Assembly: GCA_021790935.1 (NCBI GenBank)
Contig: JAJYFL010000001.1
Coordinates: 62,001-126,000, forward strand
DNA length: 64,000 nt
Direction of reading: 5' to 3'
DNA from: a bacterium
GTDB taxonomy: Bacteria > Vulcanimicrobiota > Vulcanimicrobiia > Vulcanimicrobiales > Vulcanimicrobiaceae
Each line of letters starts with the position of its first letter. Position 1 is the stretch's first letter. This document shows, piece by piece, positions 23,081 through 24,629 of this stretch. The notes beneath the pieces are model-generated. The model ran no database searches and was not told the DNA's origin. It saw only the letters and a list, made by a program, of their open reading frames with translations. The translations under genes were made by a program, and so were the position numbers.

Positions 23081-23140
23081 ATGAACGATACCGGCCGAAA
23101 TCGGAAGCGCCGGATGATTAAGGAGCACGCAATAGCATGA
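23081..23140 (+). CDS. Possible 19-residue leader peptide upstream of the cupredoxin gene
   Basis: A short open frame, ATG at 23081 to TGA at 23138-23140, encodes MNDTGRNRKRRMIKEHAIA. An AAAGGAAG lies about 10 bases upstream. Its stop overlaps the ATG of the cupredoxin gene as ATGA, so translation could be coupled. The sequence is basic and resembles no family I know. The AAGGAG inside this frame (23119-23124) also serves as the likely ribosome site of the next gene. It could be a chance frame. Confidence 0.3.
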   Translation: MNDTGRNRKRRMIKEHAIA

Positions 23141-23502
23141 AAGGCCTCTTACGCCGATCGGCCCTGCTCGCGATAGCCGTTCTCGGGCTACTCGTGACCG
23201 CAGCCCCGAGTTCGGCGCATCCCAGTATCGACATCGTGGCTTCCAACTGGAAGTTCACGCCCGCCACCATCACCCTCTACGCCGGTGAGACCCGGGAGCT
23301 GCGCCTGACTTCGAGCAGCGGCGTCCACGGACTAGAATCCAAGGCACTCGGGCTGCCCCTCACGGTGATCTCACCCGGCAAATGGGTCAGGGTCAAGGTG
23401 ACGCCCAAGAAGGTCGGCACCTACGTGCTGGGCTGCGCGATCCTGTGCGGCGCCGGCCATAAGAACATGATCCTCACTGTGAAAGTCGTGAACCCACAAT
23501 GA
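23137..23502 (+). CDS. Secreted cupredoxin with a CuA-type site
   Basis: A 121 aa exported copper protein. Residues 1-27 form a signal peptide ending in SSA. The rest is one cupredoxin fold like the soluble domain of cytochrome c oxidase subunit II. The CuA ligand pattern is present: His64 (SSGVHGLES), then Cys100, Cys104, His108 and Met111 in CAILCGAGHKNM, spaced C-x3-C-x3-H-x2-M. The membrane helix of subunit II is missing, and no other oxidase gene is near. The stop overlaps the next start by 4 bases, coupling it to the cytochrome-porin. A role as periplasmic electron carrier for that protein is inferred; a NosZ-like or copper-delivery role is also possible. Confidence 0.82.
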   Translation: MKGLLRRSALLAIAVLGLLVTAAPSSAHPSIDIVASNWKFTPATITLYAGETRELRLTSSSGVHGLESKALGLPLTVISPGKWVRVKVTPKKVGTYVLGCAILCGAGHKNMILTVKVVNPQ

Positions 23503-24629
23503 AACGTCTGATAACCACGGCCGCCGGTCTCACGATTGCGGCCTTCGCGATCTTCGCTCAACGCGCCGACGCCATGCCGCCGTTCGCGCAAGCTTACGGC
23601 GTGAAGTGCAACGTCTGCCACACGCAAGTCCCCATCCTCAACTCGTATGGCCGATACGTCCAACGCACCGGGTACGCCGCGCTCGATCCGCAAGTGCTGA
23701 AGCGCGCTCTACCGGTGTGGTTGGATGACAGTGTCAGTTACGATGCGCAAGGCTCGCCACGGGTAGTGTTCGGCAACGTGGGGCTGCACCTCATCGGCGA
23801 CTTGGGAAACGGCAGCAACAACAACTGGACCTACCACGTCCAGCAATGGATCGTGGACGGCAACCAGGCCGGCGGCCTCGATACGATGTGGCTCGCGTAT
23901 AACAACTTGCTGCACCACGACGGGCATCTTTTCATCGGCAAAGTCGAAGCGCCGGGCCCCTCGCCGTTCAGCCAGTTCTCGGATCTTGCCGCCTTCTCTA
24001 CACCTGAGATCACGGTCGGCGAGCACGCCTACCAGCTCGACGCAAACCGCTGGGGCGTGAAGCTCAACTACGTCCACCACTGGATCGACGCGGAGGCCGG
24101 CTGGCTCGGCAGCGGCGGCGACCTCACCGGCACGGGCGGGGCGAGCGATTTCTCGAGCGATACCGACAAGACGTTCCAGTACAAACTCGCCTATGCAGAC
24201 GCCTCGAATCCGCTCGAGGTCGGCGTCTTCGGATCGCGCGGCTCGTGGCCGCTCGCCGAAGGCGGAGTCGACCAGTACCACTCGCTCGCAGGCTACGTAC
24301 AGCGCGATCCGACCGGAGGTCTACCCGGTGTGCTCGTGGTCTACCAACACGCCTACGACGGAAACGCCGGCGCGGGATTCGGCCCTGCGAACAGCACCGC
24401 ATCGACGTTCGAGCTCTACCAACCGGTACTTGGGCGCGGTCTCATCACGATTCGAAAAGAGTTCACCAACGACGGCCTCGGAACCCAGGCCCAAAGCGGT
24501 GAAGTGAACTTTGCCTATCACCTCGCACGCTACCTGGACTTCTACATCCAAGATGGGTTCGTGCAGAACGGCACGCCGGACTGGCAGGCGATGCTCTGGT
24601 GGACGACACCGCTCAGCGTCGTGAAGTAA
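23499..24629 (+). CDS. Fused monoheme cytochrome c / outer-membrane beta-barrel protein (Cyc2-like layout)
   Basis: A 376 aa exported protein. After a signal peptide (1-25) comes a short cytochrome segment with a single heme site, CNVCH at 37-41, in the context [20 protein letters not shown] followed by [11 protein letters not shown]. That context resembles the heme region of Cyc2-type outer-membrane cytochrome-porins (FARxxGxxCxxCH...LNxFGRxFKxxGY). The remaining roughly 310 residues alternate polar and hydrophobic residues with many Gly, Asn, Trp and Tyr, as in beta-barrel strands. It ends in VVK rather than a terminal aromatic residue. Coupled to the CuA protein, it could move electrons across the outer membrane; function and direction are inference. 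Confidence 0.68.

Follow-up and report, generated by a model that had tools for sequence, protein, structure and literature searches.

A bacterium of the class Eremiobacteria, in the little-known phylum Eremiobacterota, encodes, immediately upstream of a Cyc2-like cytochrome-porin with a single heme attachment motif, a small secreted protein carrying the full canonical ligand set of a binuclear CuA centre. This separate CuA protein appears to be a dedicated partner of the outer-membrane cytochrome-porin throughout the class. To our knowledge, CuA centres have been described hardly anywhere except as integral parts of cytochrome c oxidase and nitrous oxide reductase. We propose an inward electron line, running from an outer-membrane Cyc2-like conduit to a soluble CuA protein and on to an oxidase, and place the probability of this reading at about 0.6. 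That the pair acts as an electron conduit at all is likely. The most specific form of the proposal, a line free of cytochrome c from outer-membrane heme to soluble CuA to the CuA of a ba3-type oxidase, used throughout this class of uncultured soil bacteria and with CuA and cytochrome c interchangeable on the barrel, is offered tentatively, as a possible rather than a probable account.

In the proposed mechanism, a donor at the cell surface or in the pore would reduce the barrel heme, carried by an N-terminal single-heme cytochrome that would sit on the periplasmic side of a 16-stranded porin. Given the presumed outer-membrane location and holo-protein formation, this heme would in turn reduce the soluble periplasmic CuA protein, which would carry the electrons to a terminal heme-copper oxidase, ba3-type in most linked relatives, whose receiving subunit II would itself hold CuA. 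The donor is probably a small reduced compound, with Fe(II) the favoured candidate on account of the Cyc2 analogy and of mine drainage and peat as habitats.

The gene pair

The host genome (Eremiobacterota/WPS-2; 2.65 Mb, 98.8% complete) contributes the window, by which we mean the whole 64,000-nucleotide stretch of DNA that was analysed. Here the pair lies among housekeeping genes, with fabF, rnc and smc upstream and rpmA, obgE and nadD downstream, and it occupies the same genomic position in two further species of the host genus, a context that gave no reason to suspect a phage or plasmid origin. Features of both genes are collected in Table 1. An earlier note, made from the sequence, had described two open reading frames sharing four bases, the first a secreted cupredoxin with a complete CuA ligand set and the second a protein with a barrel-like remainder after its single CxxCH. 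The frames and their overlap were confirmed, the ligands (H64, C100, C104, H108 and M111) proved to be conserved among homologs, and structure prediction gives the barrel-like remainder as a 16-stranded porin. A fold other than a barrel, or failure of CxxCH conservation in a wide family, had been named beforehand as telling against the idea; neither was found.

Table 1. Coordinates of the CuA-barrel gene pair and its features within the window
Feature	Position	Strand	Basis or remark
Secreted CuA-type cupredoxin gene	23137..23502	+	121 aa ORF; Pfam, PDB and AF2 support
Cupredoxin signal peptide, predicted	residues 1-27		mature start H28
CuA ligand His64	23326..23328	+	sequence; invariant column H37 of mature protein
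CuA ligand loop C100-x3-C104-x3-H108-x2-M111, CAILCGAGHKNM	23434..23469	+	sequence; conservation
ATGA stop/start overlap, 4 bases, of CuA and barrel genes	23499..23502	+	sequence
Cyc2-like monoheme cytochrome-porin gene	23499..24629	+	376 aa ORF; homologs in 53/60 relatives
Cytochrome-porin signal peptide	residues 1-25		predicted from sequence alone
N-terminal heme segment, residues 25-52	23571..23654	+	most conserved part of barrel protein
Heme c attachment motif C37-N-V-C40-H41	23607..23621	+	invariant in 42 homologs
16-stranded beta-barrel	23715..24611	+	AF2 pLDDT 84.2, pTM 0.84; Foldseek

The first protein is a 121-residue precursor in which the signal peptide is followed by a 94-residue domain. 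Pfam reports a match to Cupredoxin_1 (E 3.9e-10), with COX2 falling slightly under its cut-off, and the nearest solved structures in the PDB are the CuA domains of the T. thermophilus ba3 oxidase (E 1.9e-8). The AlphaFold2 model of the domain (pLDDT 94.8) has a CuA-type cupredoxin fold, and Foldseek against the PDB again returns the T. thermophilus ba3 CuA domains as top matches (TM up to 0.88, rmsd 1.4). Against the NCBIfam model for CoxB (TIGR02866) the protein scores 37.6 bits where the curated cut-off is 147.7, and no membrane helix is seen in its sequence besides the signal peptide, hence no CoxB-type anchor. A reading of the small CuA protein as a mere coxB leftover was set aside: the genomes carry coxB alongside the small proteins, whose similarity to one another far exceeds their similarity to coxB.

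The canonical CuA ligand motif is Hx34Cx3Cx3Hx2M (PMC6189053). The window protein carries a canonical motif in the form Hx35Cx3Cx3Hx2M, and the spacing from His to the first Cys in 47 CuA proteins is 35 residues in 42, 34 in three and 36 in two. All five side-chain ligands are invariant in 47 of 47 aligned proteins, a set chosen by motif; in 79 CuA homologs found by similarity near barrel loci, with the motif unused, C-x3-C-x3-H-x2-M is kept in 77, the two exceptions being one eroded copy and one weak match to another protein. The tripeptide AHP occurs at the predicted signal cleavage site in 27 of 42 CuA precursors (alignment A4; 23215-23223 in the window). Judged from these sequences, the mature protein may start with a histidine, a possible additional copper ligand.

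For the 376-residue protein, searches of Pfam and NCBIfam returned no family above threshold. Across 42 barrel homologs, with identity down to 27%, C37, C40 and H41 are invariant and PxLN and GR are conserved directly after CxxCH. Two further histidines, H143 (39 of 42 homologs) and H176 (40 of 42), are nearly invariant, and either could be a candidate heme or metal ligand. The AlphaFold2 model, built for the mature gene product with 38 homologs in the input, shows 16 main strands, and Foldseek matches it to the 16-stranded porins PorB, VhChiP, OmpK36, Omp32 and OprO in the PDB, with E-values from 2e-10. Its least confident part is the CxxCH segment (residues 11-20, pLDDT 38); heme is absent from the model, and low pLDDT can occur where a cofactor is missing.

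Distribution and pairing

Strong barrel homologs are present in 70 of 117 genomes of the class Eremiobacteria, in 87 copies. The check for conserved co-occurrence that the earlier note had proposed came out in its favor: 59 of the 87 barrels, in 53 of the 117 genomes, are directly preceded on the same strand by a CuA gene, 67 have one no more than 3 kb away, and natural porin-CuA fusions exist. A start codon for the barrel is available exactly at the four-base overlap in 40 of the 47 upstream pairs examined, and the ATGA arrangement suggests translational coupling of the two genes. Across 55 genomes, 30 have both genes, 17 have neither, and the two mixed classes hold four each (Fisher p 3e-7, phylogeny ignored). 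Distances among CuA proteins track those among barrels (r 0.76; 0 of 1000 permutations), a correlation that shared ancestry alone could also yield.

A scan of GTDB genomes found 77 related loci, several of which coincide with contigs of the window's close relatives, and every named member belongs to Eremiobacterota (WPS-2, Vulcanimicrobiota); the scan used two peptide patterns from the window's barrel family, and more distant relatives may exist elsewhere. Habitats of the relatives include peat, mine drainage and Antarctic soil, partly according to record titles and partly as general knowledge. If the proposed inward line is right, the pair would serve as a marker for possible oxidation of iron or another metal in peat, mine-drainage and polar soils, in which members of Eremiobacterota abound.

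Because 61 of 128 CuA matches in the 117 genomes have no strong barrel beside them, CuA must have other jobs too, although some of these matches adjoin more divergent barrels (L181, L182). The host genome encodes a second, stand-alone CuA protein (L175 9230-9772, minus strand, G000:C25) with no cytochrome-porin nearby. By eye, two loci (L176 368-1114, plus strand; L177 8829-9614, minus strand) place a CuA domain C-terminal to a part resembling copper-amine-oxidase-N, and a copy 69% identical to that of the window (L186 2714-3784, minus strand) shares its contig with a gene for a NarH-like ferredoxin-type subunit. Seven CuA matches cross one in-frame stop (G026:C7:31862, G034:C26:102899, G092:C39, G095:C5, G107:C79, G118:C221 and G120:C4) and are possibly decaying copies or frame ends.

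Fusions and exchange with cytochrome c

Four barrels (L083, L084, L087 and L138) have CuA fused to the C terminus, and ten have a C-terminal cytochrome c domain instead. The host itself has a paralog of the latter kind (L002/L052), in which a single chain comprises heme, barrel and C-terminal cytochrome c domain; no CuA gene adjoins it (L052 8198-9760, minus strand, G000:C11). Most barrels having neither CuA nor a fused cytochrome c are adjoined by a gene for a mono- to tri-heme cytochrome c. Hand checks of two barrels without a CuA motif found upstream of one (L120) an eroded CuA copy that has lost the Met and nearby residues, and at the other (L129) a small cytochrome c. In a tree of the barrels, those with fused CuA form a clade (support 99/99) whose sister is a cytochrome c-fused clade, and the nearest relative of the branch holding both carries an upstream CuA gene. 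To account for the five partner states takes 13 changes on this tree, compared with 30 when labels are shuffled. CuA and cytochrome c look like alternative, exchangeable periplasmic acceptors for one barrel, which fits the periplasmic position of both porin termini. Together, the fusions and swaps make the docking partner of a Cyc2-type barrel directly testable.

The exchange bears on two readings that involve no electron conduit. In one, the barrel admits copper and the 121-residue protein acts as a chaperone supplying copper to the ba3 oxidase. Copper porins are known in principle, many CuA proteins of the family stand alone, and the pair is linked to ba3 genes (see below), all of which would suit such a role. 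It would leave the invariant heme motif with nothing to do, however, and the small protein retains all five CuA side-chain ligands; moreover, in related barrels cytochrome c takes the position of CuA, which fits electron transfer and not copper delivery, and some barrels carry fused CuA or cytochrome c. We regard copper handling as quite unlikely. In the other reading, the heme domain would make a sensor or gate, for O2 or NO for example, of an ordinary nutrient porin, and CuA would be a redox reporter or scavenger. The general-porin fold of the barrel is compatible with this, as are the regulatory genes near some copies and the ability of B-type oxidases to act on NO. The CuA/cytochrome c exchange and the fusions, which suggest that what is conserved is electron transfer, and the profile homology of the barrel to Cyc2-type proteins nevertheless leave little room for a sensor, and we judge it very improbable.

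Linkage to a ba3-type oxidase

The window contains no oxidase gene near the pair, just as the earlier note had said, but that statement does not extend further: a ba3-type coxA is encoded elsewhere in the host, and oxidase genes lie near the pair in many relatives. Since the linkage exists in relatives, the absence from the window is a local feature. One or both of coxA and coxB occur in the fetched stretch around 17 of 49 CuA-barrel copies (15 of 47 loci), where stretch length over genome size gives a chance expectation of 0.25 copies. Seven genomes (G042, G043, G047, G050, G051, G052 and G054) show the uninterrupted order coxB-coxA-CuA-barrel on one strand; at the other oxidase-linked loci the cox genes are divergent from the pair or a few kb away. 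The linked coxA is ba3-type, matching that of T. thermophilus at E 2e-122, and the linked coxB matches its ba3 counterpart at E 5e-39, with a coxB of a different kind at one locus (L094). The host genus shows no linkage of the oxidase to the pair; the host's ba3 genes occupy a separate contig (C9), where they are flanked by the two-component, stress-protein and c5 genes that also accompany the linked copies elsewhere.

Genes recurring around the ba3 oxidase (L056, L061, L062, L071 and L163) encode a response regulator with a histidine kinase, a universal stress protein, phosphoketolase, acetate kinase and an unannotated family of about 150 residues (c5). The recurrence of universal stress protein, phosphoketolase and acetate kinase around the module at most hints at a low-oxygen or energy-stress regulon.

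The direction of flow has to be weighed against this setting. The pair could instead run outward, delivering electrons from respiration to an acceptor outside the cell; in that case CuA would reduce the barrel heme from the periplasmic side. The anatomy of the pair is direction-neutral, and the two-component, universal stress protein, phosphoketolase and acetate kinase genes near it in several genomes could represent a low-oxygen regulon. Yet the pair is linked to a heme-copper oxidase, which consumes O2 and so is an electron sink; CuA centres are generally high-potential; and a single heme without a multiheme relay differs from the known exporters. Outward flow is accordingly an unlikely account of the pair.

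A further possibility keeps the same conduit and the inward direction while having CuA deliver to a cytochrome c or, by reverse flow, to the quinone pool, and not directly to the ba3 oxidase. A tri-heme cytochrome c adjoins the pair in several copies, the host encodes several cytochromes c as well as further oxidases, and in A. ferrooxidans a cupredoxin is a branch point (PMC10654088). Against this, the seven genomes with coxB-coxA-CuA-barrel have no cytochrome c gene in between, and we think such indirect delivery rather improbable, with direct transfer from CuA to oxidase the presumed route.

The preferred reading, an inward conduit, draws on computed evidence of several kinds: the porin and CuA folds, the invariant motifs, the pairing of the genes, the fusions and swaps, the oxidase linkage in relatives and the profile match to Cyc2 described below. 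It is supported as well by the content of the host genome, which according to family searches encodes, besides the ba3 oxidase, Omp85, a cytochrome c assembly protein and soluble cytochromes c. Other COX2 genes are also present in the host.

Comparison with known systems

Cyc2 sets the precedent of a 16-strand cytochrome-porin that oxidizes Fe(II). It is defined by a signal peptide, a single CxxCH, a 16-strand porin, AxPxFAR[QK][TY] ahead of the heme motif, PxL behind it, and a length of at least 365 residues (PMC8406198). Like Cyc2 of A. ferrooxidans and Mariprofundus, the window barrel has a signal peptide, one N-terminal CxxCH, a PxL motif four residues past it and a predicted 16-stranded porin fold, and at 376 residues it is long enough. 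It differs before the heme motif, reading AMPPFAQAY with Q for R and A for [QK], and the family consensus is AMPxFAQAYG. The Cyc2-like context claimed in the earlier note thus stands for CxxCH, PxL, porin and profile homology, while FAQAY replaces FAR[QK][TY]. On its sequence, we class the barrel as Cyc2-like and homologous to Cyc2, but not as Cyc2; as the strict motif is absent, iron oxidation is not transferable by homology alone.

The profile match between the barrel family and Cyc2-signature plasmid proteins has probability 96.8 and E 2.8e-10 over 247 columns. The Cyc2-side profile has six members with corrected starts and a full or nearly full signature; the Cyc2-signature proteins are plasmid-encoded, in Methylocystis, Caballeronia, Ideonella, A. 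ferrooxidans and others. A direct BLAST comparison of the window barrel with one Cyc2-type plasmid protein found no match, because the annotated gene start excluded the heme domain. A c-type cytochrome gene is found just downstream or close by at seven of seven Cyc2-type plasmid loci and a CuA gene at none of the seven, whereas the partner of the window barrel is a CuA cupredoxin. One long frame adjoining a CuA gene (L185 10777-14076, plus strand) contains EFARRTLLSCGACH, near the true Cyc2 signature, and may encode a separate Cyc2-type protein in the class.

One Eremiobacterota MAG is reported to have a Cyc2-like gene, in passages that do not mention a copper partner (PMC8357290); a paper on an Eremiobacterota isolate mentions neither cupredoxin nor porin (PMC9758169). 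The earlier note had taken a CuA partner for a Cyc2-type barrel to be undescribed, and in the open-licence literature, where absence is not proof, we likewise found no CuA partner of Cyc2, nor any earlier description of a CuA-barrel arrangement with probable transfer to an oxygen-reducing enzyme.

Among CuA proteins, the CuA domain of ba3 subunit II (T. thermophilus, 2CUA) has the fold (TM 0.87 on the query, rmsd 1.4) and ligand pattern of the window cupredoxin, which differs in being a separate secreted protein without an anchor, in genomes that also have coxB. PmoD of methane oxidizers is likewise a separate periplasmic protein with a CuA centre outside oxidase or N2O reductase, but it lacks the canonical motif, using a different ligand set, assembles its CuA site from two monomers and includes a membrane helix (PMC6189053).

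The nearest working analogue, as we see it, is the rus operon of A. ferrooxidans, which encodes cyc2, cyc1, coxBACD, rusticyanin and Cup/AcoP, with an aa3 oxidase (PMC10654088, PMC4059628). Both gene sets bring together a cytochrome-porin, a cupredoxin and a heme-copper oxidase. The rus operon uses the single-copper proteins rusticyanin and AcoP with an aa3 oxidase, in contrast to CuA with a ba3-type enzyme in Eremiobacteria, and it includes cytochrome c, which in the Eremiobacteria set is absent or an alternative. Rusticyanin and AcoP, the latter a single-copper protein (PMC4059628), have a one-Cys type-1 or green site (C-x6-H-x4-M in AcoP), unlike the two conserved Cys and CuA spacing of the window cupredoxin. 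If the proposed inward line is correct, the CuA protein would provide a second copper route, besides rusticyanin, by which extracellular electrons reach an oxidase.
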